Part shown: positions 1-55,814 of the stretch, piece by piece | Layout: every line of letters begins with the position of its first letter | Numbering within the stretch: the first letter of the stretch is position 1 | DNA from: Heliopora coerulea | Taxonomy: Eukaryota; Cnidaria; Anthozoa; Scleralcyonacea; Helioporidae | DNA: 64,000 bases | NCBI GenBank assembly: GCA_030142905.1 | Contig: JASJOG010000190.1 | Coordinates: 248,001-312,000 of the forward strand | Reading direction: 5' to 3' | Position numbers and translations under genes: made by a program | The notes under the pieces: model-generated | What the model was told of the DNA's origin: nothing | Databases searched by the model: none | The model's input: the letters and a program-made list of their open reading frames with translations, nothing else

Positions 1-1
1 G

Positions 2-2077
2 GTCTTCCACCAAGTGTTCGTGGACCAGGTCCCTTTCCAGGTGCCCAACGAGGCCTTCAAGACCGATCTAGGCCTGTATGGGCGGGTGGTTGCAGTGAAG
101 CACCTCCCGGTAAAGGGCTACCCCAACATCCAGTCTGGCACCAGAATGGTGACCATGACCATTAAGACGCCAGTCCCACGTTACATCAGGGTCGCTGGCT
201 TCTCTTGCACCGCCGGCTACAAGGGACAACCTGTCACCTGTAGCCGCTGTGACTCTTCGGGTCACAAAGAGAAGCAGTGCCCATTGAGGACTGGCGCAAA
301 GTCCTTTGCTGGGGCTGTACGGGACCGCAGATCAGGTCCCCCTCCCACCGCCCATACCAGTTCGGGCACCTCGGTCACTTTAGCGGGGGGTCCACGTCAC
401 CAGGACCCCCCCGCAGCTAAAAAGACCTCGGCCCAGCCTCCCGCTACCGGGAAGGGTGCTCCACAGCCTCCCCTCCGCCAAGGGGAGAAAAAACAAGCGC
501 CCAAACCCCGGAATAACACCAACAGCGGGGGGCACAACAAAAAAGCGGCCGAGGCCGATAGTGTGGAGACGGGCAAGGGTACACGCCAGTCTCCCCCCAG
601 TTCGGAGGGAGGGCGTGTGCCCGACCCCTCCCTGTTCCTGGAAAGGATTGCCCCTTTCCCAATAGCGGCCACAGGGGCACCCAAAAAAGGGGGTCGTCGT
701 TCTTCTCTTGGCCCCCTACCCCGTTCCCAAAAACCCCTTACATGTAGTAGGCGGTCGGTGACCATAGCGCGTCACCGTTCAACATCTTGCCGCTCCACCA
801 TCGCGGCAAAAAGGAGTCGCTCCGACGCCTGGCCGGTGCGCAGTGTGCTACCCGGCCGTAAAGGGCGCTTGCGCGTCCTTTGCGCAAAGAGCGGCTCTAC
901 ACCGCCTACTCCTCCCACCACCACCCCTGTGGTCATTTCGGACGCACCTGTCGTGCGCTCCATCGAAGGACCGGCCAATGCATTGGCCATTACCATCCAT
1001 CCTCACAACGGTGAGGATGTTCCCTCGGCCAAGACGTTGGCATTACCTCCAACGTCTACTACCGAAGACCGTACATTGGCCGAGGTGGTCGATGTTCAGG
1101 CCGGTCTTGATAGGGCCCTGGTTCCATATACAGGGCCCCCCGAGGCTGAAGGTTCAGCCTCCGCGTTAGCCATCGTGGATGGTTCTGCCAAACAATTGGA
1201 TCTGCCCCCTACATCATCTGCGGCAGATCCCACATTGGCAGAGATGGCTGACGCCCGTCTCGTCCCTCCTCTCCCGGAGTCCGACTCCGAGGATGACCTG
1301 CGGGGCAACAACGTTGTTGATGTGCCCCTGGGGGAATCCCAGACCCTGGAAGTATTTATGACCGGGGTCTCGACGCCCGTCAACCCAGGCACACCAACGC
1401 CTGAGATCCAGAGTTTTTCTGACTCTGGATCGGAAAGGATGGAGATAGCTTCTTTCTCTCCATCCCAGGACGGTGCTGTCATCCCCCCTGCGCCTACCGC
1501 CGTAGTCGCACAGGTCGCTAATGTGGTCGCATCGGATCACATTAGCCAGTTTACGGCCTCGGAAGAAGGCCTAGTTGTGGTCCACACTGCTTCCCGTGTG
1601 GTGGAGCAGACCACCATCGTGGCCACACAACAGGAGAGTGAGGGAATAATACCTCCCACACCCGGCGTGACAGGGGCCATCCAGCGGACTGTCGTTCAGT
1701 CCGCTGTGGGATCGACGATGGTCCTTCCGCCGGCCGTCCAACGTTGTTCGTTGGCGGAGGGCGGACCCGATTCATTAGGGTCCACCCCCGACTGGCAGCC
1801 ATCCGCGCTGGCACCATTACCTTCTTGCCAGCGCTCCGAGTCTGAGGCCTCTAACCCTCAGCTCACCTACGATGGCTGCTCCGACCAGCTTCCGATGTCC
1901 GACGACGAATACGCGTCGGCATCTGAGTCGAGCGACGACGACAAGACCTTGGCCGTGTCGGTCAAGGTAGAAGAACCATCAACTTTGATGGTTCTACGTC
2001 GTCGTGGTAGCCGTGGCCCCCGTTCGGGGCCGCTGCCGTTACCCCCCTCCGGAGCTTTCCCCAATCGTCGTGGTTAG
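2..2077 (+). CDS. Element T ORF1, RNA-binding protein, 5' partial
   Basis: The frame is open from the first bases of the window, so the true start lies upstream; a GTG at 14 is only the first alternative start codon. Counting from 14, an RRM-like segment is followed by a zinc knuckle C76-x2-C79-x4-H84-x4-C89. This matches the second half of the N-terminal domain seen in the ORF1 of A, B, D and E. Residues after about 100 are low-complexity, Pro/Ser/Thr-rich and increasingly acidic. By analogy with ORF1 proteins of non-LTR elements it should bind element RNA in an RNP. The stop TAG is 36 nt before the ORF2 start. The nucleotide sequence is unusually rich in perfect inverted repeats (separate entry). 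Confidence 0.8.
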   Translation, partial: VFHQVFVDQVPFQVPNEAFKTDLGLYGRVVAVKHLPVKGYPNIQSGTRMVTMTIKTPVPRYIRVAGFSCTAGYKGQPVTCSRCDSSGHKEKQCPLRTGAKSFAGAVRDRRSGPPPTAHTSSGTSVTLAGGPRHQDPPAAKKTSAQPPATGKGAPQPPLRQGEKKQAPKPRNNTNSGGHNKKAAEADSVETGKGTRQSPPSSEGGRVPDPSLFLERIAPFPIAATGAPKKGGRRSSLGPLPRSQKPLTCSRRSVTIARHRSTSCRSTIAAKRSRSDAWPVRSVLPGRKGRLRVLCAKSGSTPPTPPTTTPVVISDAPVVRSIEGPANALAITIHPHNGEDVPSAKTLALPPTSTTEDRTLAEVVDVQAGLDRALVPYTGPPEAEGSASALAIVDGSAKQLDLPPTSSAADPTLAEMADARLVPPLPESDSEDDLRGNNVVDVPLGESQTLEVFMTGVSTPVNPGTPTPEIQSFSDSGSERMEIASFSPSQDGAVIPPAPTAVVAQVANVVASDHISQFTASEEGLVVVHTASRVVEQTTIVATQQESEGIIPPTPGVTGAIQRTVVQSAVGSTMVLPPAVQRCSLAEGGPDSLGSTPDWQPSALAPLPSCQRSESEASNPQLTYDGCSDQLPMSDDEYASASESSDDDKTLAVSVKVEEPSTLMVLRRRGSRGPRSGPLPLPPSGAFPNRRG

Positions 2078-5000
2078 CTCCGACGAGGAGGAGAACCACT
2101 CCTAGACACGACAATGTTCAGCGTGGTCTCGCTAAACATCAACGGTCTTAACGACCGTACTAAGCGGACCACCTTCATTCACTGGTTGCAGTGTTTGAAG
2201 GCTGACATTGTCTGTCTGCAAGAGACGCACGCCGCGTCTCATGCAACATTTCGGAGTTGGTTTTCCAACTCAGGGTATGCGGTAGCTTCTTCCTGCATTT
2301 CCAACAAACGTGCAGGAACGGCTATCCTAGTCTCCTCTAAACACCGCCTAGACAAAGTCTGGCGGGATGAAGCTGGTCGTTTTGTTCAAGCGGAGGTAGG
2401 CATAGGGGAGCAAGTCCTTCGTTTTGTCTCCCTCTATGCCCCAAATAGTAATCCGGCACGAAACAAATTTTTCGCTTCGTTGCCGGATTTAATGGATATG
2501 TGTCGCCCCACATTTGTATGTGGGGATTTTAACGCGGTGTTGGACCCCGACCTCGATCGACGCCATCCTCGATCCTTTCAGAGGCCGGCTCCAAACCGCT
2601 CTGCCGAAAGCGTGACTGCCCTTCAGTCCTTGTTGTCAGCAACTCAGACCTTTCCAACGTGGCGCTCCCTTCACCCAGGAGTACGTACTTACTCCTGGGA
2701 TCATGCTTCGGGAGATTGCTCCTCCCGGATCGACATGATCTGGGCGCCCATAGGTCTGAAGGACCAGATCCAGGACTGCGATTACTATCCATCCTTCTTC
2801 ACGGATCACCGTTATATCCAGGTTACCTTCTCCCTTGACACAACCTCCGAGGTGAGAGGCCCTGGATATTGGAAATTTAACATCTCTCTCCTCGAAGATC
2901 AGGAGTACTGTGATCTCGTGAAGTCGTTCTGGTCCTTTTGGAAGACGCAAGAGTCTGAAGGGGATTTTGAGAACTCCTTGGACTGGTGGGACATGGGGAA
3001 GTTTTATCTCAGGGAGGTAACTCGTAGTTTTGCCAAAACTAAGGCTCTAGCTAGCTCGTCTGCCCAACGCCTCTTGTTGCGCCGCCTCCGAACACTCCAG
3101 CGTCGGTTTGACGCTGGAGATTCGACCGCCTTCGGAGAGCTGTGCGCCGTACAAGAGGAACTGCGAGAACACGAGCTGCGTGCAGCTCAAGCGGCGCAGG
3201 TCCGCTCTCGCTGCAGATGGGCTGAAGAAGGAGAAGTGTCATCTGGCTACTTCTTCTCGCTAGAGCAGAAACATCGATCAAAGCAGACTATGAGTGCCAT
3301 CAAAGACCCTGAGACGGGGACGGTCCACCACGACCCTATTGCCATTTTGGGAGTGTGGCGGGCCTACTACGAGCAGCTCTTTACAGCTCAGAGCTGCGAT
3401 TCCCCTACCCAAGACCACCTGTTGTCCAAGTTAGTCCGGACTCTCGCTCCTGGTGAGCGAGAGCTTTGTGAAGGACTCCTCACGTCGGAAGAGTGCGAAA
3501 CGGCCCTTAAAGGGATGTCTGCTGGTAAGACTCCCGGGTCGGACGGCTTTCCGATGGAGTTCTATTCGCGCTTTTGGCCAGTCCTCGGTGCCGATCTCGT
3601 GCGTATTCTCAATCTAGCGTACGAGGTCGGGCAATTATCCATCTCTCAACGCCGAGGACTTATTATAGTTTTGTATAAAAAGGGCGACCGGTTACTGACA
3701 AAGAACTGGCGCCCAATAAGTCTACTTAACGTAGATTATAAAATCGCCACCCGTGCTATCGCGGGTCGGCTTTTAAAAGTTATCGGTTCGGTGGTGTCAC
3801 CGGACCAAACTTGTGGAGTTCCCGGGAGATCCATAAGCGAAAACCTTTCCACCATCAGGGACCTAATCGACCACGCAGCGATGGAGGATATCCCCGTCGC
3901 CCTTCTCTCCTTAGACCAAGAGAAGGCCTTCGATCGTGTCGACTGGGGATTCCTCTCGCGCGTCTTAGAAACCATGGGTTTCGGTCCCGGTTTTCGCAAG
4001 TGGATCTCCATATTCTATACCAACATAGAATCCGCCGTAGTCATCAACGGTTGGACCTCCCCTAACCTCCACCCGTCTCGTGGAGTGCGACAGGGTTGTC
4101 CTCTCTCCCCGTTACTTTACGTCCTCTGTGCCGAGGTACTAGCTTGCAATCTGCGAGCTGCACCCGGCATCAAGGGAGTCCAACTTCCCAACTCTTTAGA
4201 GGAACTGAGGGTATCGGGGTATGCCGACGACACTACGGTGGTAGTTACTACGGAGAACTCCATCAAAGAAGTTTTAAACGTTTACGACCTCTACGAGCTG
4301 GGCTCGGGGTCGAAACTAAATTTAGGAAAGTCAAAGGCCATGTGGGTCGGCAAATGGAAAGATCGTACCGACCGGCCCCATGGTCTCAATTGGGTAACAG
4401 AGTTACCATTACTCGGGGCAGTGTTTTCTGCCTCGGATTATACAAGTGCCACCTGGGACCCTAAAGTCGAAAAAGTGGAGAAGCGTCTTGCATCCTGGAA
4501 GGGTCGGTCTCTTTCCCTTCAGGGCAAGGCGCTCATTATAAATGCATTAGCATTGTCCCAGATCTGGCACTTGTGCTCTATATTCGTGATGCCAGCAAAG
4601 GTGGCATCGCGAATTAACAAGGCGATTTGGTCTTTCTTTTGGTCGGGCGGCCGAGATCTTGTCGCCCGCAGGAGTATGGTTCAGCCGCGAGCCCACGGAG
4701 GTTTTGGTATCGTGGACTTTCGGTTGAAAGCGGACGCAATGGCGCTCCAGTGGCTAAAGCGTTTCCGCCGTGACTCCTGCGCCAAATGGAGGACCTTCTT
4801 TTTCCATAATTTTTACCGGGTCTTCATGTACGACCCGGTAACATCCTTTAAGTTAGGTAGCACTTTATTTAACCGCACTAGGTGTTCACGTCTCTCGACC
4901 TTTTACAAACATCTGGTCGAGGCCTGGAGCAAATTCCATGGCGGCGCCATGGCAGACGGCCGTTTGGCCCTCGGTGTCGAGCAGGACGCCCCTCTGGAGG

Positions 5001-5576
5001 TGGCGTCCATGTCCACCCAGTCTGCCTATCGTGTTGGACTCGCTATCCAACGCGAACCACCACACTGCGTCGCCAAATTCCGCCCCACCTACGGCGAGCT
5101 CCATTGGCCCGAGACGTGGCACCAATTAAGCTACCTGACTCTGGACAGGACGATAGTTGATCTGAATTGGAAGATCGCGCACGGAGTTTTGTACACCGCC
5201 TCGCGGCTGGTCCGCAGTTTTGGCTACCGCAACGTCGATCCCCGGTGCCATTGCGGTGCAGACGAAGAGACGCTGGCTCATCTCTTCTTCGAATGCTCCT
5301 TTGCGCAGTTTCTGATCAACTGGGTATATTTCCATCTGCTGTCTGTGGATCCATCTGCTGGCCCTTTCACGGTCACCGAAGTTCTCTTCGGTTTTCCGCC
5401 AGCACGCCGCAGACGCATACCCAAGATCGTGATGTGGATGCTCCACGTGATGAAGCATCGCATCTGGCTAGCCCGGAACAACTTTAGGTTCCGCGGAACG
5501 CCACCTGTCCCGGATGATTACATCCAAGGGGCCATCGTCCGTATCAAGTTCGTATTGGCGCTAAGAGCACGCCAAT
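973..5576 (+). other. Hairpin-dense coding region of element T
   Basis: Perfect short inverted repeats follow one another through ORF1 and ORF2. Examples with arms of 8 or more: 973-988 (GGCCAATGCATTGGCC), 998-1019, 1032-1057, 1113-1138, 1142-1161, 1198-1230, 1405-1431, 1437-1465, 1517-1546, 1682-1706, 1805-1834, 1972-1995 (11-bp arms), 2290-2318, 2450-2489, 2506-2525, 3095-3119 (10-bp arms), 3441-3463, 3901-3926, 4814-4840. Many more have 6-7 bp arms, such as 2222-2240, 2254-2271, 4894-4921, 4936-4952 and 5554-5576. I did not see a comparable density in the ORFs of A or E. Confidence 0.75.
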
Positions 5577-5674
5577 GCCATACGGACGCACAACGCGAGC
5601 GTTTTAGAAAAGAGTGGCTCGCAAATGGTACCCTTGGTCGCCTTGTTTCGGAGAAGCTGGTCTTCTCTTTTTAA
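2114..5674 (+). CDS. Element T ORF2: APE endonuclease / reverse transcriptase, 1186 aa
   Basis: ATG start in the context GACAATGTT. The N-terminal APE-type endonuclease has QE37T, GD138FN140, RID207 and D231H232. The RT domain has a SAGKTPGSDG segment, a WRPISLL motif, motif A with D601 (SLDQEKAFD), motif B (RQGCPLSPLLY) and the catalytic YADD at 703-706. Near the C-terminus is a C1045-x-C1047-x7-H1055-x4-C1060 knuckle. All expected catalytic residues are present and the frame is uninterrupted, so this copy could be active. In this family the enzyme nicks the target and primes reverse transcription of its own RNA (TPRT); given the junction, the expected target is the 5' end of U1. It is clearly homologous to, but more divergent than, the ORF2 pair of A and E. 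Confidence 0.95.
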   Translation: MFSVVSLNINGLNDRTKRTTFIHWLQCLKADIVCLQETHAASHATFRSWFSNSGYAVASSCISNKRAGTAILVSSKHRLDKVWRDEAGRFVQAEVGIGEQVLRFVSLYAPNSNPARNKFFASLPDLMDMCRPTFVCGDFNAVLDPDLDRRHPRSFQRPAPNRSAESVTALQSLLSATQTFPTWRSLHPGVRTYSWDHASGDCSSRIDMIWAPIGLKDQIQDCDYYPSFFTDHRYIQVTFSLDTTSEVRGPGYWKFNISLLEDQEYCDLVKSFWSFWKTQESEGDFENSLDWWDMGKFYLREVTRSFAKTKALASSSAQRLLLRRLRTLQRRFDAGDSTAFGELCAVQEELREHELRAAQAAQVRSRCRWAEEGEVSSGYFFSLEQKHRSKQTMSAIKDPETGTVHHDPIAILGVWRAYYEQLFTAQSCDSPTQDHLLSKLVRTLAPGERELCEGLLTSEECETALKGMSAGKTPGSDGFPMEFYSRFWPVLGADLVRILNLAYEVGQLSISQRRGLIIVLYKKGDRLLTKNWRPISLLNVDYKIATRAIAGRLLKVIGSVVSPDQTCGVPGRSISENLSTIRDLIDHAAMEDIPVALLSLDQEKAFDRVDWGFLSRVLETMGFGPGFRKWISIFYTNIESAVVINGWTSPNLHPSRGVRQGCPLSPLLYVLCAEVLACNLRAAPGIKGVQLPNSLEELRVSGYADDTTVVVTTENSIKEVLNVYDLYELGSGSKLNLGKSKAMWVGKWKDRTDRPHGLNWVTELPLLGAVFSASDYTSATWDPKVEKVEKRLASWKGRSLSLQGKALIINALALSQIWHLCSIFVMPAKVASRINKAIWSFFWSGGRDLVARRSMVQPRAHGGFGIVDFRLKADAMALQWLKRFRRDSCAKWRTFFFHNFYRVFMYDPVTSFKLGSTLFNRTRCSRLSTFYKHLVEAWSKFHGGAMADGRLALGVEQDAPLEVASMSTQSAYRVGLAIQREPPHCVAKFRPTYGELHWPETWHQLSYLTLDRTIVDLNWKIAHGVLYTASRLVRSFGYRNVDPRCHCGADEETLAHLFFECSFAQFLINWVYFHLLSVDPSAGPFTVTEVLFGFPPARRRRIPKIVMWMLHVMKHRIWLARNNFRFRGTPPVPDDYIQGAIVRIKFVLALRARQCHTDAQRERFRKEWLANGTLGRLVSEKLVFSF

Positions 5675-5680
5675 CGTTTT

Positions 5681-5907
5681 TAACCTCTTTTGTTAGGTCC
5701 CGGCCTCGGCGGTCGCCTTAATTGGTCGTACTTCCGTTGTCGGGACATTGTTTCTTCTAGGCTTCCTAGGATTCCTGTTTTTAACGTTTTTAACGTTTTT
5801 AACATTTTTAACCTCTTTCTCTTCTAGGTTCCGGCCTCGGCGGTCGCCTTAATTGGTTGTACTTCCGTTGTCGGAACACTAGCTCTTTTAGGTTTCCTAG
5901 GATTCCT
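5681..5907 (+). repeat. Imperfect ~97-bp tandem duplication in element T 3' UTR
   Basis: Unit 1 is 5681-5776 and unit 2 is 5810-5907. Both begin TAACCTCTTT, share CGGCCTCGGCGGTCGCC, and end CCTAGGATTCCT. They are separated by GTTTTTAACG-type repeats. Confidence 0.9.
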
Positions 5908-6017
5908 TTTTTCAATTCTTTTTCTTTTAGAAAAATCTTGCGTCAGAACTTAGCTTCCGACTTTGGGGGTGAGGGTCACGCCCTCAGCTAGTTTGCGGCT
6001 TTGTAGGCCCCCCCTGT

Positions 6018-6069
6018 TAAAGATATACTCATTGCACTTACGCCCTAGGAGCGTAAGAGTATATCTTTA
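6018..6069 (+). promoter_or_regulatory. Element T terminal RNA hairpin with ATTGCAC bulge
   Basis: The outer stem TAAAGATATACTC (6018-6030) pairs perfectly with GAGTATATCTTTA (6057-6069). A 7-nt one-sided bulge ATTGCAC (6031-6037) follows. The inner stem TTACGC (6038-6043) pairs with GCGTAA (6051-6056) around the loop CCTAGGA. ATTGCAC is the core of the U1A-binding loop of U1 stem-loop II, and CTCATTGCACTT (12 nt) is identical to that loop region in the U1 genes here (for example 7279-7290). A role in binding a U1A/SNF-type protein is inference. Confidence 0.7.
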
Positions 6070-6080
6070 TCAAAATAAAA

Positions 6081-7217: not shown

Positions 7218-7306
7218 ATACTTACCTGACGCGAGAGGTACTTTGATCACGAAGGAAGTCCTCTCAGGATGAGGCCCTCTCATTGCACTTCGATTGGGTT
7301 GACTCC

Positions 7307-7776: not shown

Positions 7777-7963
7777 ATCGCTTCTCGGCCTCTTGGCTAA
7801 GATCAAGTGTAGTATCTGTTCTTATCAGCTTAATATCTGGTATGCCAGGCAACGCCTGGCTCATATATTAAACTGATTTTTGGACCTCGGCCATGGGATT
7901 GAAGCTTGCTTCACCCTGGCCACGGGTTGTCTCGGTCTTGCACTAAATCCGAGTACGGCCCCT
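7777..7963 (+). ncRNA. U2: U2 snRNA copy 2, intact
   Basis: Identical to copy 1, with C at nt 16. Confidence 0.95.
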
Positions 7964-8941: not shown

Positions 8942-9353
8942 TGACTGAGCGATCGCAGTTGGAGTTCATCGAGATTTCTACTGTTCTACTTCGAAGCCTG
9001 CGCAGTTCTACGAGCGTCCGTCGATCGTTTGTTCGTGAGTACTTTTTCTGGTTTTGTGACTTTTTGGTACTTTTTGAGGGGTCTAGAGTGGACGCATGCT
9101 AGGTGGAGTCCTCCCCTTAACACTCTAGACTCTCTCTGGTCCTCTCTCCGGCTTACTGGGTAAGCCAGTCGTGGTTTTGGTCCTGTGCATACGTGGTTCC
9201 TGTGGTGCACTATCGTTTTGGCACACTCGACCTTGTGGACATCCAACCGTCCTCCTCCCACAACTCTTGGAGCGGAATCCAGGTTTACTTACCAAAGTAC
9301 CTGTTCGTAAACTCAACAACTGTGAGTTAGCTATTATTTTTTGCATATTTAGT
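8942..9353 (+). other. Element A1 5' UTR with structured uORF
   Basis: The leader starts with TGACTGAGCGATCG, shared with B, and contains TTCTACGAG, shared with B and D. A perfect inverted repeat GTCTAGAGTG (9081-9090) / CACTCTAGAC (9121-9130) encloses GCATGCT and an inner GGAG-TC-CTCC hairpin. An 11-codon uORF (ATG at 9096 to TAG at 9126) sits inside it. E, D and probably B have an equivalent hairpin with changed but still paired arms. Confidence 0.65.
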
Positions 9354-11120
9354 ATGGCCATTCCGTACTCAAATAGAGTGGCCATCGCCGAGTTTCCCGA
9401 GCTCGCACTCAAAAACCAGCCCCGGGTCACTCCTAAAGAGGTCTGGGCCGACTTTTCTAACCAAGCCGCCCCGCTCTTGAATTATTTCGAGTGTATCCAA
9501 TTGATATCCGCCTCGAAATTACGTATCCTTTTCCCCAGTGCCACCCTCATGGAAGACAGCCTCGCGGAAGGCCTTACCTTTCGTGGTCACCCTTTGGCCC
9601 TCACCCCGATCTCCACCAGAAAATGGATCTCGGTGCAAAGACTTCCTTATGGCATCCCACTGGATGAAGTGAAACGGGTCTTGAACCCGTTTGGTAACAT
9701 CTTTCACGCCAAACATGAGTTCATGGAAGGCGTTGCTACTGGCACCATCTCGGTGCAAATGGAGGTGAAAGCGAACATTCCTTCCAAGGTTATGATTAAA
9801 GGCCATTCTTGCCTTATATTTTATAACGGGCAGCAAAGAACTTGCTTCATTTGTCAAGCCCCTGATCATTTGACTAAGAACTGTCCCCGACGTAAAGGAC
9901 AGTCCACCATGCGGGATAACCACCCCGCGTCCCAGCCTTCCACATCTCAGGAACGGGACCACCACCCGCCAATCCACCACCAACGATCTGAGGAGGTGGC
10001 AACAACTGAACATGCCGACCTTCCCTTAGACAGCTCCCAAACAAATGAACACGAGCCTGGAGCGGAGCCCCAGGAACAAGAGGCAATACCCCCAGACTCC
10101 CACCAACAACAGGAGTCAGTGGAGCTGGTCCCTTGCCCACCTACTGACCCTTCCGTCGATACCAACTCCCAGGAACAGGAGGCACCAACCCAAGACTCCC
10201 ACCAACAACAGGAGTCCGAGGAGCTGGTCACGTGCTTACCTACTGACCCTCCCGTAGATTCCAACTCGGTTGTGCCCACAGACCAAGATGAAAACGCATC
10301 GACTGAGGACGCTGTTCATTTACCCTCAGCATCCGACTCCACCTTACCAACTGAGAGTCAGGAACAAAGTGATTCACAAGTTCCAACCTCTCCACAAATC
10401 ACCTCCCCAACTACAGGGGATGATCAGCCATCCACACCATTGGCAGAACCCAACCCTTCCGAACAGCTGTACGTCAGCACAACATATAGTGCAGCGTGTG
10501 TCATCCCCACAGTCGTGATGGCAACCGACCTGCTGCAGTTAGAGCAGCTGGCCCCACCCGACGATGAGACCCTCTCCAACTCTACACCCCAACGCACGTC
10601 GTCGCGAGCTGTTACTTCCACCACCAGCTCCCACACTGCCAAAGGCGTCTCTTCGGTCATCCCCCCCGGAGGCAACGATATCCCAACGCGGAAATCTAGG
10701 CGGTCTAAACAGGCCGAGACAGCGCGCCGCAAGAGCGCAAACCATCCCAAATCATCTAACCCCCCCAAAAACCCCCCCAATACCCCCCATTCCCCTGTGA
10801 CGCGGCGAAACCTCGGTAAAAGACCAAATGCGGCTATGACGTCAAGCTTTAACCCTACGGCACGGAAATCCACATCCCCGAGCCTAGCGGGTACTGGAAT
10901 TTCGGCAAGATTACTGGAAAAACGGAAAAAACCCAATGTTATAAATGTTGATTACGTACCACAAGTTTCTACTCAGAACGCATTTGACTTCCTCGCCACT
11001 TTGAGCGAGGAAGAGGAAAGACCTTTCCTGACTTCTTCAGGGAACTTTCTCCCAGACTCCCCAGTGAGGGATCAGCCACTTCGGCCCAGACCAGCCCTGC
11101 CCCAGGACTCTGGCGAATAA
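9354..11120 (+). CDS. Element A1 ORF1, RRM-like/CCHC protein, 588 aa
   Basis: I chose the ATG at 9354 because the protein then begins MAIPYSNR, matching MAVPYSNR at the start of the E ORF1; the frame is open upstream to 9171 but has no earlier ATG. Residues about 10-85 form a conserved block (PELALK...FECIQL...FRGHP). Residues 90-150 resemble an RRM (RLPYGIP; TGTISVQM). The knuckle is C154-x2-C157-x4-H162-x4-C167. The rest is Pro/Ser/Gln-rich with a 33-residue tandem repeat, then a basic patch (RKSRRSKQ). It is expected to coat element RNA. It differs from A2/A3 by at least one residue (PPDD versus PPDE). Confidence 0.9.
   Translation: MAIPYSNRVAIAEFPELALKNQPRVTPKEVWADFSNQAAPLLNYFECIQLISASKLRILFPSATLMEDSLAEGLTFRGHPLALTPISTRKWISVQRLPYGIPLDEVKRVLNPFGNIFHAKHEFMEGVATGTISVQMEVKANIPSKVMIKGHSCLIFYNGQQRTCFICQAPDHLTKNCPRRKGQSTMRDNHPASQPSTSQERDHHPPIHHQRSEEVATTEHADLPLDSSQTNEHEPGAEPQEQEAIPPDSHQQQESVELVPCPPTDPSVDTNSQEQEAPTQDSHQQQESEELVTCLPTDPPVDSNSVVPTDQDENASTEDAVHLPSASDSTLPTESQEQSDSQVPTSPQITSPTTGDDQPSTPLAEPNPSEQLYVSTTYSAACVIPTVVMATDLLQLEQLAPPDDETLSNSTPQRTSSRAVTSTTSSHTAKGVSSVIPPGGNDIPTRKSRRSKQAETARRKSANHPKSSNPPKNPPNTPHSPVTRRNLGKRPNAAMTSSFNPTARKSTSPSLAGTGISARLLEKRKKPNVINVDYVPQVSTQNAFDFLATLSEEEERPFLTSSGNFLPDSPVRDQPLRPRPALPQDSGE
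10068..10265 (+). repeat. 99-bp tandem duplication inside A1 ORF1
   Basis: Units 10068-10166 and 10167-10265 encode two copies of a 33-residue segment (QEQEA...DSHQQQES...ELV...TDP.VD). The same duplication is present in A2 and A3, so it predates their spread. Confidence 0.9.
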
Positions 11121-11174
11121 GAAATATAGTAAAAGTAATAATTAGTAGTAGTAGTAATCGTAGTAATAATAGAA
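11121..11174 (+). other. Stop-saturated linker between A1 ORF1 and ORF2
   Basis: A 54-nt spacer rich in TAG and TAA (for example TTAGTAGTAGTAGTAATCG) that closes the frames immediately before the ORF2 ATG. It may favour termination followed by reinitiation. The same linker is in A2 (36834-36887) and A3 (44245-44298). Confidence 0.6.
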
Positions 11175-14100
11175 ATGATCAACTTTATCACAATTAATGT
11201 GCAAGGTTTACGCACACTTGCACACCGTCAAGCTTTACTAACCTGGCTCAATAATCTCGGGCCAGACATTATTTGTCTCCAAGAGACCCACGCTACATCT
11301 GACAGGGAGTGCCGAGACTGGTTCTCCGCCACTAATGCATGCAATCAAAAATACAAATATAAATGTACCTCATCCCCCGGAACAGCGCGCAGCTCTGGGG
11401 TTGCCATCCTATATAAACCCTGCTTTCAGGAGGTTAAGAGTTATAGAGATGAGGCCGGTCGTTTAGTCGTTGCGGAATTCAGCCGAGACGATTTAAACTT
11501 CCAGGTCGTGTGTCTATATGGGCCCAATAAGCCAGAAGAAGGCACTGCATTCTTTGAGGCTCTATATCCGGTTATAGACCCTGATATACCGGTGTTGGTT
11601 GCTGGAGACTTCAACACGGTGGTAGACCCCCGTCTGGATCGCTTTGGGTGCAATCCAGACTCGCCGTGGGCGTATAACTGGCCCCCGGCCTTGGCGAATC
11701 TGACGGAGGCGTTCGAGCTCTGCGATGCCTGGCGCGATAAGCACCCAGGAGTAGCGGAGTTCACATGGCGCCGCCCTAATGGTTCCCAGGGGTCCCGGAT
11801 CGACATGATCTGGTTGCCCGAACGGTATATGGGACTTGTCTCGTCGGTGGGGATTTTTCCCTTTTTCCGCTCGGATCACTCTTATGTGCATCTCGAGTTC
11901 GACCTTCCATCAGCAGTCGAGCGAGGCAAGGGTCTCTGGAAATTCAACACGTCTCATCTGTCCGACGAGGCCTTTTGTTCGGAAATCGCACGATTTTGGT
12001 CCGATTGGCGTTCTGAGACTGGTCGCTTCCAATCTCTCTCGTCCTGGTGGGATGCAGGAAAGGTCCGTTTGAAACGACTGATTCGCCAACTATCGCGTGC
12101 GTCGTCCCGTGGTAAGAAGCGTAAGATCCAAGAGTTGAATGCAGCAGTTGCCGATATACAGAAACGGATAAACGACGGTGAACAGCTCCCCGGTCTGTTG
12201 GAAGAAAAGAAGGCAGAGCTGGCATCCGAACTTCTCACGGAAGCGAAGGGAGCACAGCTGCGTGCCAACATCAGGTGGGCGGAAGAAGGGGAGTCGTCTT
12301 CGGCGTACTTCTTGCGTCAAGAGAAAGTCCGTGGTCAGCGAAGGCTCATCCGAGCCATTCGTCGGTCTGATGGCCAGATCGTTAAATCGACAAAGGACAT
12401 ACTTGGCGTCTGGAGGGACTTCTATTTCCGACTGTTCTCCTCGCAACATCTGGAGGATCAAGAACAAGGGGCTTTCCTTTCAAGCCTCGAGCGGAAGTTG
12501 TCCGTTGCCGAGACCGAGTCATGTGAGGGCGACCTCACGGAGGACGAGTGCTTACGGGCACTAAAGCAGATGGCATCCTCCAAAGCACCTGGGGTGGATG
12601 GTCTTCCGGCCGAGTTCTACGTTCGGTTCTGGAGCCTCCTGGGTCCTGACCTCGTCAGGGTGCTAAACTCGTGTTACCGTCGTGGCCGTTTGTCCATGTC
12701 CCAGCGCTCTGGTGCAATAACGCTCTTGTACAAGAAAGGAGATCTCTTGGACACAGCGAATTGGCGTCCCATCACCTTGCTGTGTGTGGACTACAAGATC
12801 GCTGCCAAAGCGTTGTCTAATCGCCTCCTCGGGGTAATTGGTTCCGTGGTATCGCCCGACCAAACTTGTGGCGTTCCCGGCCGGTTCATAGGGGAGAACG
12901 TACGTCTGCTCCACGACGTCGTAGATTACGCCTCACGGGAGGCGGTGCCAGCAGCAATTTTGTCCCTTGATCAGGAAAAAGCCTTCGATCGGGTCGAGTG
13001 GCCCTACTTGGAGAAGGTTCTGGTCGAGATGGGATTTGGACCATCCTTTAGGTCTTGGGTTAGGCTTCTGTACACCGACGTGTACAGCCAAGTTATCGTA
13101 AATGGCTTTGCCACAGAGCTATTTCCGATATCTCGGGGGGTACGGCAGGGTTGCCCACTTTCTCCCCTACTTTACGTCCTCGTTGCCGAGTCATTGGCGT
13201 GCGCGATCCGCGCCGACCACAACATCGTCGGGTTCCCCCTCCCCGGAGGGCGGGAACATGCGAAGATCGTGCAATACGCTGATGACACTTCCATCTTGGT
13301 AACGACGGATTCGTCGGTCCTCGCTTTGGTGGAGTTGTTCGGGAAGTACGAGAAAGCCTCGGGAGCAAAGCTGAACCTTGGCAAATGCCATGGTTTGGTT
13401 TTGGGACCGTGGCGGAACCGTACTTCTTTCCCAGTGGCCTTTCGGTGGTCTTCCAGTCACATAGTGGCTCTAGGTAGCCGTCTCGACATCGACGGCAACC
13501 AAAACTGGGAGCCCCAGGTGACAAAGCTTTCTTCTGTCCTTAACTCTTGGCAGGGCCGTTCCCTTTCGTTCCGGGGGCGCGCGCTAATAGTTAATGTATT
13601 AGGTTTAAGTGTTTTTTGGTATTTGTTTAATGTAGTTTCTGTTCCTAACGACTTAATAAAAAATATTAATAAACTTATATATCCTTTCATTTGGCAGAAA
13701 AAAAGAGAGTGGCTCAGCAGGGACACAGTCTCACAGCCTTTAACTAGGGGGGGGTTACGGGTTGTGGACATCACCCACAAGGTTCTTTCCTTCCGGATCT
13801 GCTGGGCCAAACGCTTCTTACTCGGTGAGAAGCGCAGTTGGCATTCTTTTTTCCGTCACCACCTCCGCCGAGCCTTCCTTGCGGAACCCGTCAGCCGTGC
13901 CTTTAATTTACGGCAGGTCGGCGACTCTACGTTGAGGCGTCTCCCGCCCTTTTATCGCGAGGTGCTCTCTGCGTGGCTTCAAGTTGGCGGCCACCACGCC
14001 CCCGGGGGCTGGGTGATCCCGTGCACGGGTGCTGACCCACTCGACCTGGCCAATGTTTCTGCGCGGGAGACTTACGCCATCTTGCTCAGGAACAAAGGTA

Positions 14101-14699
14101 CAGAGAACCGTTGCGTCGAGAAGTTTTCCGCTCTGGGAGTGGAGTGGCACACCGTGTGGAAGAACCTGGACCAGCTTCGACACGACCGTGCGGCCCTCGA
14201 TACCTCGTGGCTTGTTGCGCACGGCGTGCTTCCAACAGCGGACCGTCTACTTCGGTTTGGTATGTCGGTGTCTCCTTGGTGCCACTGTGGTCGCAGAGAG
14301 TCACTTGAGCACCTTTTCGTAGAGTGTTCTTTTGCATGCAAGCTGATCGACTGGTTCCACGCCCTGGAGTCGAACTACAGGTCATCGTTACCACGCCCAA
14401 CATCGTGCGAAATCCGCTTTGGTTTCAGATCGGCGGATAAAATCCCGGCTGGATTTTCGGTACTGATGGCCTTGGTGAGGCACCAGGTTTGGTTGGCTCG
14501 GAACTTCCATCGCTTTCAGGGTTTTCAGCCGGAGCCCCGGTACTCGCTGGATCGAGTAAAGGCGTCTTTCCGTTTCCTGGCGCGAATCCAACAGCGACAC
14601 GTTCTTCGCTCCACCTTCGAGGAACAATGGCTAGCCGGGGGCGTCCTGGGTACGGTCTTGGGTGATGGTACGCTGGCGTTCCCTGATGAGCTACGGTAA
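11175..14699 (+). CDS. Element A1 ORF2: APE endonuclease / reverse transcriptase, 1174 aa
   Basis: APE endonuclease motifs are QE37T, GD145FN147, RID210 and SD234H235. RT motifs are SKAPGVDG near 470-477, WRPITLL near 530, motif A SLD599QEKAFD605, motif B RQGCPLSPLLY near 658-668, and YADD at 701-704. The C-terminal knuckle is C1036-x-C1038-x7-H1046-x4-C1051. All catalytic residues are present and the frame is intact. The expected role is to nick U2 near nt 25 and prime cDNA synthesis there. The RT and linker regions are very close to E, whereas the ORF1 proteins differ far more. About 13,590-13,690 is conspicuously AT-rich against a GC-rich background. Confidence 0.96.
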   Translation: MINFITINVQGLRTLAHRQALLTWLNNLGPDIICLQETHATSDRECRDWFSATNACNQKYKYKCTSSPGTARSSGVAILYKPCFQEVKSYRDEAGRLVVAEFSRDDLNFQVVCLYGPNKPEEGTAFFEALYPVIDPDIPVLVAGDFNTVVDPRLDRFGCNPDSPWAYNWPPALANLTEAFELCDAWRDKHPGVAEFTWRRPNGSQGSRIDMIWLPERYMGLVSSVGIFPFFRSDHSYVHLEFDLPSAVERGKGLWKFNTSHLSDEAFCSEIARFWSDWRSETGRFQSLSSWWDAGKVRLKRLIRQLSRASSRGKKRKIQELNAAVADIQKRINDGEQLPGLLEEKKAELASELLTEAKGAQLRANIRWAEEGESSSAYFLRQEKVRGQRRLIRAIRRSDGQIVKSTKDILGVWRDFYFRLFSSQHLEDQEQGAFLSSLERKLSVAETESCEGDLTEDECLRALKQMASSKAPGVDGLPAEFYVRFWSLLGPDLVRVLNSCYRRGRLSMSQRSGAITLLYKKGDLLDTANWRPITLLCVDYKIAAKALSNRLLGVIGSVVSPDQTCGVPGRFIGENVRLLHDVVDYASREAVPAAILSLDQEKAFDRVEWPYLEKVLVEMGFGPSFRSWVRLLYTDVYSQVIVNGFATELFPISRGVRQGCPLSPLLYVLVAESLACAIRADHNIVGFPLPGGREHAKIVQYADDTSILVTTDSSVLALVELFGKYEKASGAKLNLGKCHGLVLGPWRNRTSFPVAFRWSSSHIVALGSRLDIDGNQNWEPQVTKLSSVLNSWQGRSLSFRGRALIVNVLGLSVFWYLFNVVSVPNDLIKNINKLIYPFIWQKKREWLSRDTVSQPLTRGGLRVVDITHKVLSFRICWAKRFLLGEKRSWHSFFRHHLRRAFLAEPVSRAFNLRQVGDSTLRRLPPFYREVLSAWLQVGGHHAPGGWVIPCTGADPLDLANVSARETYAILLRNKGTENRCVEKFSALGVEWHTVWKNLDQLRHDRAALDTSWLVAHGVLPTADRLLRFGMSVSPWCHCGRRESLEHLFVECSFACKLIDWFHALESNYRSSLPRPTSCEIRFGFRSADKIPAGFSVLMALVRHQVWLARNFHRFQGFQPEPRYSLDRVKASFRFLARIQQRHVLRSTFEEQWLAGGVLGTVLGDGTLAFPDELR

Positions 14700-15209
14700 G
14701 TTAAGTTCTCTTCTAGAGGCCTACGATCCCTGGAAAGACCATACTTCAAGGCGTCGGTCGCCCCCTCCGGGGCTGATCGGCGGATCAAGGCAGCGCCCGA
14801 TGACTCAGTCGGGACTTCTGGTGAGTCTTTGTAGCTAATTAATTAATTAATTAATTCTAATGTAGTTAAAAGGCATTGCCCGGTTGCCGGGAATACCGAC
14901 ATCGCGCGGGGCTTTCCCGAGCGATGATGGGTCTGCGGACCTCCACGAAATTTCATGCCATTCACAACGAACTTGGTTCCACCTCACCCCCTGGCTGGCG
15001 GTAGTTACTTCTGCTTCCGCTTCGTTGGGGGATCACAATGTCTTTCAGGCATCGGAGAGGGTTTCGCGAGCCCTTTTGGTCTGAGTACCTAGCGATATGG
15101 TACCTCCGTGATGTTTCATCCTGTTGCACACGGCTCCATGGTTAGCGTGCACCGTCGCTAACCCGTACCGAAAGGTACAAGGCTGTACAGGAATGTTGAA
15201 ACTAAAAAC
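14700..15209 (+). promoter_or_regulatory. Element A1 3' UTR with conserved RNA domain
   Basis: An AATT microsatellite (about 14836-14856) is followed by modules shared with B, D and E. These are GGTCTGCGGACC (14930-14941); a hairpin presenting TAGTTACTTCTGCTT between GCGG and CCGC (about 14999-15019); a GGGTTTCGCGAGCCC hairpin; and GAGTACC/GGTACCTC (15083-15106). The terminal domain is 15113-15202: GTTTCA/TGAAAC and TCCTG/CAGGA stems, then TTGCAC (15124-15129) opposite A15187, then ACGGC/GCTGT enclosing GGTTAGCG/CGCTAACC and a GTACC-GAAA-GGTAC hairpin. This is probably the RT recognition region. Confidence 0.75.
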
Positions 15210-16940: not shown

Positions 16941-17105
16941 AAGATCAAGTGTAGTATCTGTTCTTATCAGCTTAATATCTGGTATGCCAGGCAACGCCTG
17001 GCTCATATATTAAACTGATTTTTGGACCTCGGCCATGGGATTGAAGCTTGCTTCACCCTGGCCACGGGTTGTCTCGGTCTTGCACTAAATCCGAGTACGG
17101 CCCCT
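16941..17105 (+). pseudogene. U2: U2 3' fragment after F
   Basis: Starts AAGATCAAG; no matching 5' fragment exists because of the deletion. Confidence 0.93.
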
Positions 17106-18083: not shown

Positions 18084-18174
18084 TGACTGAGCGATCGAAG
18101 TCTCTACGAGTTCTACGAGTCCCGCAAGTTTTACGAGTTCTCCGAGTGCTGTTAAGACGCTGGTGGTGGATGCC

Positions 18175-19545
18175 ATGCTTCAGTCGATGACTGATAACAC
18201 TGCCACGTCTTCCTTCGAGTCTAACAACGTCCCAAGTGGTGCCGTGGCTGATGACCGTGCCCTTCGGGGTGGTTCTTTTCAGAGCCTTTCAGCCGCGGCC
18301 CTCCTGCCTCACCAAGACCGATGTGCTTACGTCGCCATTCCAGAATTGGCCCTTCAAGGCAAACCGCCTTTAAAGCCAGACGAAGTTTGGGACACCTTTG
18401 CTAAGGACTTTGCCCCAATCGAGAACTTTTTCAGCTGCATACAGCTTGTTCGACCCAACCGTCTTCGCCTTTGGTGTCCCTCCGCGACCATCCTCGAGGA
18501 TGTTATGGCCACAGGACTAACACTTAGAGGTCACCCCTTAGGAATCAAGCCTGTTATTGATCGATGCTGGCTCACAGTCACGCATCTCCCTTACGGATTG
18601 CCTGAACAAGCCATCAAGGATTTTTTTGCTGATTTCGGCGAGGTTAAATCCCTTCGCTTTGTACAATTCAGGAAAGTTTTTACCGGCACTGTAAAAGTAC
18701 AAATGGTCCTGCATAAGTCAGTTCCTACTCGAATCCGTATACTTGGTCATGCCGGCCTTGTGTACCACCCTGGCCAATCTCGTACCTGCTTTCACTGTGG
18801 GGTGGTAGGACATGAGTCCAAGCGCTGCCCTACAAAGCAACCTGCTCCTACTGTCACCAAGAAGAAGAGTCGATCGAAATCTACGACCGCTCCCAAGCCA
18901 CCTGGTTCAGAACCAGCTACGGATTCCATCCCATCTGAGCCACAACCTGGTTCGTCGCCTGACGATCCACCTGCGGTGGTCATCCAAGACCCCCCTTTGG
19001 ATACCAATGCACCGCAAACCAATTCCTCTGTCCCTGCTGTAGCCACTCTCAATCCCCCTTTGGCTAAGGACATTCCAGTCCTTGATGAGGACGCCACCAC
19101 CATGGCCACCTCGCCACCTAGCTCTCCCATTACCGAGAAACCTCAGGACACTGACCCACATCTCTCCAAAGATGAGGGTGTCACCACTTTGGAGGTCTCC
19201 CTTTCTCCCAAGGGATCTTTTGGCCCTCCGACTTCCGACCACGTCGACGTTCACGTTGACTCAGACACAGTCACACCTCAGAAAGAGGAACAACCTGTTT
19301 TCAAAGTTCGTTTTACAGATCCACCACCTGTTCAACATTTGCTGAACACAAATCGTAAAGCGTCCCGCCGGAGAAAACCAGCACCTATACCCTCCGGCAC
19401 AGGTCTTGCATGTATACGCACTGCAACAACGCCAGCACCAGTTTCTACTGGTACTAAAGAACAAATTGACACTCCGACGGATCCATCGGATCCTTCTAGT
19501 ACGGTGTCCTCCTTATCTGACACAGGTCTGCGGACCTCCACGTAA
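18175..19545 (+). CDS. Element B1 ORF1, RRM-like/CCHC protein, 456 aa
   Basis: First in-frame ATG at 18175; a second at 18187 is possible. The start lies in the segment that is 5' UTR hairpin in A, D and E, so the N-terminus seems newly recruited. Conserved block: IPELALQ...FSCIQLVR...LRGHP. RRM-like region: HLPYGLP...TGTVKVQM. Knuckle: C195-x2-C198-x4-H203-x4-C208, followed by a Lys/Arg patch and a Pro/Ser/Thr tail. It is closer to the D ORF1 than to A or E. An intact frame in an element without RT implies that ORF1 is useful in cis. Confidence 0.88.
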   Translation: MLQSMTDNTATSSFESNNVPSGAVADDRALRGGSFQSLSAAALLPHQDRCAYVAIPELALQGKPPLKPDEVWDTFAKDFAPIENFFSCIQLVRPNRLRLWCPSATILEDVMATGLTLRGHPLGIKPVIDRCWLTVTHLPYGLPEQAIKDFFADFGEVKSLRFVQFRKVFTGTVKVQMVLHKSVPTRIRILGHAGLVYHPGQSRTCFHCGVVGHESKRCPTKQPAPTVTKKKSRSKSTTAPKPPGSEPATDSIPSEPQPGSSPDDPPAVVIQDPPLDTNAPQTNSSVPAVATLNPPLAKDIPVLDEDATTMATSPPSSPITEKPQDTDPHLSKDEGVTTLEVSLSPKGSFGPPTSDHVDVHVDSDTVTPQKEEQPVFKVRFTDPPPVQHLLNTNRKASRRRKPAPIPSGTGLACIRTATTPAPVSTGTKEQIDTPTDPSDPSSTVSSLSDTGLRTST

Positions 19546-19765
19546 TCATCTCGTATCACACACGTTCATTTGTCACCTCACTCCTTCGGCAGGGCGTAGT
19601 TACTTCTGCTTCAGCCCTGTCGGAGGTGACCATGCGGAGAATCTGGCGCAAGGGAGTGGGTTTCGCGAGCCCATTTGATCTGAGTACCTAGCGATATGGT
19701 ACCTCCCTGGGATTTGCCCTGCTTGCACGCAACCTTCGGGTTGACAGGGAAGTCAAATCTAAAAC
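19546..19765 (+). promoter_or_regulatory. Element B1 3' UTR with conserved RNA domain
   Basis: An AGGGC/GCCCT hairpin presents TAGTTACTTCTGCTT, followed by GAGTACC/GGTACCTC (19682-19705). The terminal domain is 19711-19759: GATTTG/CAAATC and CCCTG/CAGGG stems, an internal loop with CTTGCAC (19722-19728) opposite A19744, then CAACC-TTCG-GGTTG. CTTGCAC equals the U2 stem-loop IV loop core. Confidence 0.75.
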
Positions 19766-20883: not shown

Positions 20884-20942
20884 ATCGCTTCTCGGCCTCT
20901 TGGCTAAGATCAAGTGTAGTATCTGTTCTTATCAGCTTAATA
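20884..20942 (+). pseudogene. U2: U2 5' fragment (nt 1-59) before C1
   Basis: Ends CAGCTTAATA. Its last 21 nt (20922-20942, U2 nt 39-59) are the left target-site duplication of C1. Confidence 0.95.
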
Positions 20943-49476: not shown

Positions 49477-49607
49477 TCCAGAGGTCCGATCGTTCGTGGT
49501 GTTCCGCAAGCTAGAAGCAAGTCTCCGAGTTCTACGAGTCTTCAAACGCGCTGGGGGTGGATCCATGCTCAGGATTCGTCTTGTAACACTCCCACGCGTC
49601 GTCGAGT

Positions 49608-51020
49608 ATGGCAACTGATTCCGAGTGTCCCACAACGTTTGCAGCAGTCGTGGCTGGTGACCGTGCCATTCGTGGTGGCTCTTCTCAGAGCCTTCCAGTT
49701 GCGGCTGCTTCTACCGTCCCTTTACCTGACCGATGTGCGTACGTCGACATTCCCGAGTTGGCGCTGAAGGACAAACCGAAGGTCCGTGCAGCAGAGGTAT
49801 GGGATGAATTCTGTCAAGAGTTCTCCCCTCCGGAACGCTACTTCTCCTGTATCCAGCTTGTTCGACAAAACCGCTTAAGGATTTGGTGCACCTCTTCCGT
49901 CATCCTTGAAGATGTGTGTAACACTGGCCTTACTCTTCGAGGTCATCCCGTCTTGATCCGGCCCATTCAGGATCGCAGTTGGCTTACTGTCACCCATCTG
50001 CCCTACGGCCTTCCGCTTGAAGCCATCAAGGAATTTTTTTCCCAATATGGCGAAGTGAAAGCTATCCGACCGGTGTTGTTCCGTAATGTTCACACCGGTA
50101 CAATCAAGGTCAAAGTCCAGCTCCATACCACAGTTCCAACTCGGGTTCGAATCTGTGGTCACGCAGGCCTGGTCTATCACCAAGGTCAGACCAGAACATG
50201 TTACAACTGCAATCAAGATGGCCATGAGGCTAAAAAGTGCCCAAAGAGACAACAGCCTCAACAGAAGAAACCAAAGAAATCTAAAGACTCTAAGCGTAAA
50301 GAGAGTTCTCAAACTTCCAGTTCCACTGTTACTGCAACGGAGATAACGCCGCCTTCCCAGGCTGATGTCCCCTCGACCTCTACATCTCAAGAGGATGAGT
50401 TACCCGAACCTCCGACAAAGAAAGTCGTTCTGGAAGAGACCACTTCTGAGTTGACGGATCCTTCCATAGTTCTGGTGCCCCCTCCTCCGGTGATAACCAC
50501 CGACATGGTCGTGGACCCCACAGACCTTCCAGTCCCTTCGGAGAATACTCCTGATTTACCTGTTGCCCCTACCGTCACTACGGAGACCACCACCTCTGTT
50601 GATACTCCACAACTGGTAGTGGATCCTCCACAGGCCTTTATTGGCACAGCTGTTACCACTGAGAAGCCTATGGCTACTGAGCCAACTACGTCTCAGCAGG
50701 AAGAGGCTCTTCCACCAAAACCTAATCGCCCGTTCGCTGATGCGTTGGCGTGCCTACGTAAGAGAACTAAACCGCATCCCGTATACGCCCCCAAACAAGA
50801 AACGGACTTTGTTCGCGAGCTAACAGTTGGGGAAACGGAAGATGGTGAACCTATTTTGGGCGGACCGTCAGTTAAGTACATTACAGATCGTATTAAACGC
50901 CAGTACAAAGGCGTTACAAACGTTGTAGTGGAAGAGGCAATTGCCAATCTTGTCTTTAAAAATGCTAAAGGGGACACCATAGTAGAGTTCCCGTATGAGT
51001 TAGAACATTCTTCTGTTTAA
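49608..51020 (+). CDS. Element D1 ORF1, RRM-like/CCHC protein, 470 aa
   Basis: ATG in the context GAGTATGGC. Conserved block IPELALKDK...FSCIQLVRQ...LRGHP; RRM-like HLPYGLP...TGTIKVKV; knuckle C188-x2-C191-x4-H196-x4-C201, then a Lys-rich patch (KKPKKSKDSKRK). A Thr/Pro/Val-rich linker leads to a folded-looking C-terminus (ITDRIKRQYKGV...) that B lacks. It is closest to the B ORF1. The intact frame in two copies suggests selection on ORF1. Confidence 0.9.
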   Translation: MATDSECPTTFAAVVAGDRAIRGGSSQSLPVAAASTVPLPDRCAYVDIPELALKDKPKVRAAEVWDEFCQEFSPPERYFSCIQLVRQNRLRIWCTSSVILEDVCNTGLTLRGHPVLIRPIQDRSWLTVTHLPYGLPLEAIKEFFSQYGEVKAIRPVLFRNVHTGTIKVKVQLHTTVPTRVRICGHAGLVYHQGQTRTCYNCNQDGHEAKKCPKRQQPQQKKPKKSKDSKRKESSQTSSSTVTATEITPPSQADVPSTSTSQEDELPEPPTKKVVLEETTSELTDPSIVLVPPPPVITTDMVVDPTDLPVPSENTPDLPVAPTVTTETTTSVDTPQLVVDPPQAFIGTAVTTEKPMATEPTTSQQEEALPPKPNRPFADALACLRKRTKPHPVYAPKQETDFVRELTVGETEDGEPILGGPSVKYITDRIKRQYKGVTNVVVEEAIANLVFKNAKGDTIVEFPYELEHSSV

Positions 51021-51295
51021 TGTGTAGTTATTCATTTTCATAACTCCACCGAAACTTTCGTCTTACATCCGAGCTTTTCACACGCACTCTCCTTGCAGGG
51101 CGTAGTTACTTCTGCTTCAGCCCTGTCGGGAGTGACCAGACGTATCCGGCGCAACGGAGAGGGTCTCGCGAGCCCTTTTGGTCTGAGTACCCAGCGATAT
51201 GGTACCTCCGCGGATTAAGGCCTTTGCACACCACCTCCAGGGCCCATTGCACCGTCGGGTCCGTTATAGGTGGTAAGGTCGTATAACTCCAAAAC
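51021..51295 (+). promoter_or_regulatory. Element D1 3' UTR with conserved RNA domain
   Basis: A CAGGGC/GCCCTG hairpin presents TAGTTACTTCTGCTT, followed by the GAGTACC/GGTACCTC hairpin. The terminal domain is GGCCT (51219-51223)/AGGTC (51276-51280), TTGCAC (51224-51229) opposite A51275, ACCACCT/AGGTGGT, then GGGCCC/GGGTCC closing a loop ATTGCACCGTC (51246-51256). Confidence 0.78.
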
Positions 51296-55400: not shown

Positions 55401-55814
55401 ACAATTGGTGCCTGTGAACGTCCGTAGCGATCAACGTTTGAAGACTCTCGTGGTTTTCCTGCTGTTTGCTGTTTGCTGTTGGTTTTCGTGGGGGCTAAGG
55501 TGGATGCATGCTTCTGGAGTCCTCCAGATAACACCTTAGTCCACTTCCTTCGTGTTTGGTTCGTTTGGTTCGTTTGGCTTGGAGTTCCAGTGTTCCTGAC
55601 CGTGCTGCATCGCAGTGGTTCTTTTTGGAGCCTTGGGCACTGGACGTCCGCTGGTAGCTGGTTGCTGGTTGCTGGTTTTGGTCTTTCGCGTGGGGGACTG
55701 CCTGCACTTGGGCGGTAGTCCCGTGTCCCACATTTGGTGGATCGTATCTGTTCGGTGTATCCTTGTGGTATCCTTTTTTCTTCTTCTTTGTGTGTGTAGC
55801 TCTAGCTCTAAGTA
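55401..55814 (+). other. Element E 5' UTR with structured uORF
   Basis: The hairpin CTAAGGTG (55495-55502) / CACCTTAG (55532-55539) encloses GCATGCT and an inner TCTGGAG-TC-CTCCAGA hairpin. A 7-codon uORF (ATG CTT CTG GAG ... TAA) lies inside. Short repeats such as GCTGTTT and GGTTGCTGGTTGCTGG follow. Confidence 0.65.

Follow-up and report, generated by a model that had tools for sequence, protein, structure and literature searches.

Why should retrotransposons that insert into U1 and U2 genes end in a stem carrying UUGCAC, the core of a protein-binding site of the U1 and U2 RNAs themselves? The question is raised by a stretch of 64,000 nucleotides from Heliopora coerulea, here called the window (C102:248001-312000, C102 being the contig of the window, in a genome of 430 Mb), which is a portion of a tandem U1-5S-U2 gene array with a repeat unit of 1140 bp. 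A sequence-only reading of the window had described a TTGCAC box at the 3′ end of four element families and proposed that it mimics the U1A/U2B″/SNF binding site and might recruit an SNF-type protein, with possible consequences for localisation, RNA stability or polyadenylation.

Non-LTR elements in the U1-5S-U2 array

Genes of the array are interrupted by non-LTR elements of the APE/RT type (A, E and F, in which PF03372 for APE and PF00078 for RT were matched) and by ORF1-only relatives (B and D) with an RRM and a zinc knuckle (CCHC), in which no RT match was found. The elements have the same orientation as the snRNA genes, and the elements and structures located below lie on the plus strand. 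Element A (8942..15209; further copies end at 40922 and 48333) is inserted in U2 between ..GGCTAAG and AAGATC.., with AAG on both sides. The same U2 site is used by B (18084..19765, 484 aa; further copies end at 26638 and 33511), D (49477..51295, 477 aa; second copy ending at 54257) and E (55401..61753, ORF1 of 635 aa, ORF2 of 1206 aa), and in all four the 3′ flank begins at U2 nucleotide 23. Element F (1..6079), whose 5′ end lies beyond the window, abuts U1 nucleotide 3 with its 3′ end (ACTTACCTG). Elements at U2 nucleotide 23 (U2-23) have no long poly(A) tail but terminate in AAAAC or a few further A. Exact matching in C102:1-200000 found 35 U2 copies interrupted at nucleotide 23 and none uninterrupted, and U1 interrupted at the element-F site in 8 of 43 cases; in the window, 10 U2 copies were interrupted at the nucleotide-23 site and seven were not, and one of 17 U1 copies was interrupted.

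The ORF2 products of F and A are about 40% identical. The B and A 3′ UTRs match at 76%, D has A-type motifs by eye, and the F 3′ UTR has no evident module in common with those of A, B, D and E, again by eye. To judge from the one 3′ UTR type that they have, A, B, D and E are therefore not independent inventions. Upstream of the box, the motif TCTGAGTACCYAGCGATATGGTACCTCC is conserved in the 3′ UTR (A 15080-15107, B 19679-19706, D 51182-51209, E 61625-61652). B and D, with no RT match but a 3′ UTR of the type seen in A and E, resemble half-LINEs. Nineteen database proteins are similar to the D ORF, and for 15 of the 19 the longest contigs measure 1.4-1.9 kb.

U2-targeting APE elements are already known: according to PMC4640811, Keno, of the Tx1 clade, is a non-LTR element with APE and RT in U2 genes. 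A and E are like Keno in domain content and in being inserted in U2, but the insertion site here differs, as the flank of A, B, D and E at U2 nucleotide 23 lies 16 nt upstream of the Utopia/Keno flank, which we infer from PMC4640811 to be U2 from nucleotide 39. Utopia likewise inserts specifically into U2, but with a restriction-like endonuclease (RLE), whereas A, E and F have APE and not RLE.

A few further arrangements were observed. A second U2 site is occupied by elements C (window 20942-22689) and H (62930-64000), of which C shows a 20-bp target duplication (TCTGTTCTTATCAGCTTAAT) and a 499-aa ORF without a Pfam match at 1e-3. In G (window about 16192-16940) and J (L053 about 2789-3871), a 5S gene is broken at an identical point and joined to U2 nucleotide 23; J has repeated GACACAGTGAGAGTGTG-like motifs and no plus-strand ORF of 120 aa ending before the junction. 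Near position 1786 of locus L028, a chimeric tail joins an E-type 3′ UTR to a D-type last stretch, which suggests template switching or recombination between families.

The ORF1 proteins combine two RRM-like domains with a CCHC knuckle, and the matches listed for them are PSPC1/NONO, SFPQ, HuC, TDP-43 and hnRNP A1/A2. A structural model of D ORF1 shows two RRM-like folds (mean pLDDT 82, pTM 0.53). An ORF1 RRM reading RNA as U1A does was considered and found unsupported, with no U1A among the listed matches and with a D model of this pTM.

Terminal structures of A, B, D and E

The TTGCAC positions reported before (15124, 19723, 51224 and 61669) are all correct, and the common plan described for the four tails, i.e., an outer helix, TTGCAC opposite a single A, and an inner helix, is present in each. 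In A, the structure covers 15113..15202, with TTGCAC at 15124-15129 opposite A15187 between an outer helix (15119-15123/15188-15192) and an inner helix (15130-15135/15181-15186). In B (19711..19759), the loop CTTGCACG at 19722-19729 faces A19744 (outer helix 19717-19721/19745-19749, inner helix 19730-19734/19739-19743). D (51212..51290) has its internal TTGCAC at 51224-51229 opposite A51275 (outer helix 51219-51223/51276-51280, inner helix 51230-51236/51268-51274), and E (61658..61747) at 61669-61674 opposite A61733 (outer helix 61664-61668/61734-61738, inner helix 61675-61680/61727-61732). A few nucleotides separate the end of the stem from the integration junction.

D and E carry a second box in a hairpin loop of 11 nt closed by a C-G pair, C-[ATTGCACCGTC]-G (loops at 51246-51256 and 61692-61702). 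This extent, 11 nt with C-G closing, corrects the earlier description of the loop. The loop had been read as an addition of D and E, but it need not have been added because A has a degenerate second box, GTGCACC, in a side hairpin at 15140-15163. Of the two pair changes cited as compensatory, TCCTG/CAGGA to TCCTA/TAGGA is so, but GTACC/GGTAC to GTGCC/GGTAC is one-sided (A-U to G-U).

Fold z-scores were −4.17 (A), −1.85 (B), −2.23 (D) and −3.04 (E); the tails of C and G gave 0.51 and −0.44. According to the structure descriptor (see below) and the unpaired probabilities of the partition function, the core is unpaired in its loop, more weakly so in F and in B, where the box is partly paired in the ensemble.

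The tail of the U1 element F

The last 62 nt of F contain a terminal structure (6018..6069) in which ATTGCAC at 6031-6037 is bulged after a C-G pair, between a 13-bp outer helix and an inner helix of 6 bp (6038-6043/6051-6056). The fold z-score is −6.27; the minimum-energy fold pairs the box in part, and the form with an open box is 0.2 kcal/mol worse. The F box, CTCATTGCACTT, is identical to host U1 stem-loop II (SLII) over 12 nt, the longest match of 21 tail-RNA comparisons and one that was reached in 0 of 300 dinucleotide shuffles. The tails of A, B, D and E match U1 or U2 over no more than 6-8 nt.

The plan compared with shuffles and controls

A descriptor of the internal plan (helices of 5 bp or more, 0-2 nt facing the box, no more than two G-U pairs per helix) was applied to all 72 TTGCAC of the window on both strands. 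It was passed by 10 of 10 internal tail boxes, F included, versus one of the 62 remaining TTGCAC, those of the U1 and U2 genes and of the D/E hairpins being counted among the 62. At seven loci outside the window (L001-L007), 2 of 20 TTGCAC passed. When the hexamers in 120-nt tails of A, B, D, E and F were compared, TTGCAC alone had the plan in all five. When the box was held fixed and the flanks were shuffled, the plan appeared in 43 (A), 8 (B), 45 (D), 50 (E) and 32 (F) of 4000 trials (0.2-1.3%).

Because the B tail and the 3′ halves of D, I and J come out misaligned in MAFFT, we took pair changes from helices defined by hand, and an alignment of 14 tails, which leaves out B, F, G, K and repeat copies, was used for the two boxes only. 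Nine of ten inner and outer helix columns vary on both sides among A, B, D, E and F; because the sequences are few and four of them have one 3′ UTR type, these changes count as support for conserved pairing and as nothing stronger. In the 14-tail alignment, the GCAC of the two boxes makes up 8 of the 12 invariant columns. The core is kept across families while the stems change on both sides.

The box across families and the genome

Our survey covered 200 kb of C102, the window and 30 further loci, and families I, J, K and M were named by eye. Dropped from it were the U2_39 row at C102:144697, where element A precedes a U2 that differs by one base, and the U1_3 rows L016 and L029, in which U1 has a variant promoter but no insertion. 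By eye, nine families can be told apart among the U2-23 elements: A, B, D, E, I, K and M have TTGCAC, J has TAGCAC in both boxes, and G (3′ junction at 16941) has no box in its tail. The statement that the box marks all four U2-targeting families therefore holds for A, B, D and E, but the set was incomplete, with C and G lacking the box and the U1 element F having it. At least one exact UUGCAC is found in A, B, D, E, F, I, K and M; the internal box of I is CCGCAC or CTGCAC.

Among 31 distinct tails (28 U2-23, three U1), the internal plan was found in 26, 22 with TTGCAC and four with a changed box (three I, one J), and was absent from five, namely both K tails, L028, L029 and G. The 11-nt hairpin loop with the box directly after the closing C-G pair occurs in D, E, I, J, K and M, as C-[ATTGCACCGTC]-G (D, E and I), C-[ATTGCACTACA]-G (M), C-[ATAGCACTACC]-G (J) and C-[CTTGCACACCC]-G (K); next to the loop, E and M have just 2 bp before a bulge, and the E-type copies L030 and L032 lack the hairpin.

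Within the last 100 nt, TTGCAC was present in 34 of 35 U2-23 elements and 8 of 8 U1 elements of C102:1-200000, and in 9 of 10 and 1 of 1 of the window, counts in which the copies are not independent. Random 100-nt stretches contained it in 1224 (C102:1-200000) and 1514 (window) of 20000 draws. Genome-wide, there are 153 exact junctions of AAAM with AAGATCAAGTGTAGTATC, and TTGCAC lies 59-89 nt before AAACAAGATC.. at 58 places; in this distance range, reversed patterns gave none.

At the U2 nucleotide-39 site, whose flank is used by C and by the element at C102:155942, both element types surveyed are without the box, as is a bivalve U2 element (L003, a contamination). The box is therefore not needed for U2 insertion in general. 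A scan of the genome contigs found seven distant RT loci, with a U2 gene at L003 only, and viral contigs scanned for the junction, RT and the 3′ UTR module held no relatives.

Likeness to the U1A/U2B″/SNF site

Host U1 SLII has its core at 7283..7288 in a 10-nt loop, C-[ATTGCACTTC]-G. The core of host U2 stem-loop IV (SLIV), TCTTGCACTAAAT at 7938..7943, lies in a 13-nt loop in the centroid fold; for UCUUGCACUAAAU of SLIV, an 11-nt loop results only if a U-U pair closes it, as such a pair does in human U2. The element loops are like these sites in having UUGCAC right after the closing pair in a loop of 10-11 nt, with a C-G closing pair like that of U1 SLII; K and B, like host U2 SLIV, read CUUGCAC. 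The element loops differ from these sites in lying on a retrotransposon 3′ end, often with two boxes per stem, and in that binding is putative. Several lines support the proposed resemblance: the UUGCAC core is matched exactly, six families have 11-nt loops closed by C-G, F matches U1 SLII over 12 nt, GCAC is invariant in both boxes of the 14 tails, and the elements are inserted in the two genes whose RNAs bind SNF/U1A/U2B″.

U1A recognises AUUGCAC in hairpin or internal loops, according to PMC2203988 and PMC5807370. Following PMC2203988, changing G4 or A6, both of which are within the invariant GCAC columns, costs human U1A 6.4-6.8 kcal/mol, and A1G costs 5 kcal/mol. An A at position 1 after a C-G pair, the high-affinity U1 form, is present in the hairpins of D, E, I and M and in F; J also has A after C-G, but continues with UAGCAC. 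The A, B and K boxes and the internal boxes of D and M do not have this arrangement: nucleotide 1 is G in A and M, C in B and K, and U in D (internal boxes, the hairpin for K). By the position-1 substitutions of PMC2203988, human U1A would bind internal boxes of the forms GUUGCAC, CUUGCAC and UUUGCAC poorly, although C is also found at this position in host U2. For SNF, PMC5992148 describes contacts to UUGCA and C13 and a helpful C:G closing pair, and states that SNF serves both U1 and U2 RNAs in metazoans except jawed vertebrates. A search of the genome with U1A RRM1, which scores best candidates only, gave one match (C179:1637788; 80% over residues 25-83), as would be expected where one SNF serves both snRNPs (PMC5992148).

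A further comparison is offered by the polyadenylation-inhibitory element (PIE) of U1A mRNA, which has two internal boxes; in the U1A UTR RNA, a single A stands opposite the box. What the elements have in common with the PIE is a box of the AUUGCAC type at the 3′ end of an mRNA, in an internal loop with a helix on either side; D, E and M have two sites. Unlike the PIE, the elements have one internal and one hairpin box, and an effect on polyadenylation is putative.

Alternative explanations

Based on these results, we consider it fairly probable that the element 3′ RNAs carry a putative docking site for a host U1A/SNF-type protein, a copy of the U1 SLII/U2 SLIV site. The main rival holds that stem and box are a signal for the element's own protein (ORF2 RT or ORF1) and resemble an SNF site by coincidence; we regard it as rather unlikely, and just as doubtful its corollary that the signal is common to autonomous elements and to the ORF1-only B and D, which would borrow their enzyme. 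The stem does end where RT recognition would need it, a few nucleotides before the junction, and B and D, without an RT match, have the 76% 3′ UTR match of B to A and, by eye, the motifs that D has in common. Given ORF2 products 40% identical between F and A, the motif could be ancestral, and J, without a plus-strand ORF of 120 aa before its junction, has both boxes changed to TAGCAC as if following one reader. However, the UUGCAC core, its place after C-G and the 10-11-nt loop would then match by chance (1 in 4096 for the hexamer). Further, no U1A is among the ORF1p matches listed (best 60 of 82 by sequence, best 50 of 1383 by fold), and the aromatics that U1A stacks on C5 and A6 are, by eye, not conserved across ORF1p.

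We give little credence to the box being an snRNA fossil, captured by template switching at the element 3′ end and since inherited as a functionless remnant. For elements in U1/U2 genes, a template jump into U1 or U2 RNA is plausible, and F has its 12 nt of U1 SLII, but the matches of A, B, D and E are only 6-8 nt long, and stems are altered on both sides with GCAC invariant. A chance motif in a structured 3′ UTR, to which the frequency of TTGCAC in the window could point (it is common because U1 and U2 genes hold it), is scarcely credible in view of the flank shuffles (0.2-1.3%), the window controls (1/62) and the recurrence over families.

Possible role of the proposed docking site

For the docking site, we propose the following course. 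The element RNAs present UUGCAC once or twice, either within an internal loop (where one A faces the box in A, B, D and E), or in an 11-nt hairpin loop closed by C-G, or in both, and a host U1A/SNF-type protein may bind there. Binding could make the element RNA resemble an snRNA and retain it in the nucleus close to the U1/U2 arrays; according to PMC3338655, U1 and U2 loci are associated with Cajal bodies. It may also suppress polyadenylation, as U1A does at its own PIE, where two boxes hold a U1A dimer that blocks poly(A) polymerase (PMC9977717), so that an exact 3′ end would be kept for target-primed reverse transcription. The co-orientation with the snRNA genes and the AAAAC ends without long poly(A) suit a defined 3′ end. 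The terminal stem probably also serves recognition by the reverse transcriptase. On the other hand, the A preferred ahead of UUGCAC is absent in A and B, the J boxes are altered alike, I departs from the core, G and the U2-39 elements are without the box, five of the 31 tails do not show the internal plan, and the box is partly paired in F and B, all of which we count against docking. More tentatively, and with less confidence than in the docking site as such, we suggest that the RNA may be disguised as an snRNA and that SNF might carry the RNP to the U1/U2 arrays, one host protein thereby acting for U1- and U2-targeting families.

Among the open-access papers searched, none joined U1A, retrotransposon and AUUGCAC, and a broader search had none on point among the 15 of 133 matches listed. 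To our knowledge, this would be the first case of a LINE 3′ UTR copying an snRNA protein site. The finding bears on how site-specific LINEs find few genes in a large nucleus: the structure may mark the element RNA or steer it to the U1/U2 genes, and, if true, an snRNP-protein site on element RNA would be a homing or RNA-disguise mechanism linking U1- and U2-targeting families.
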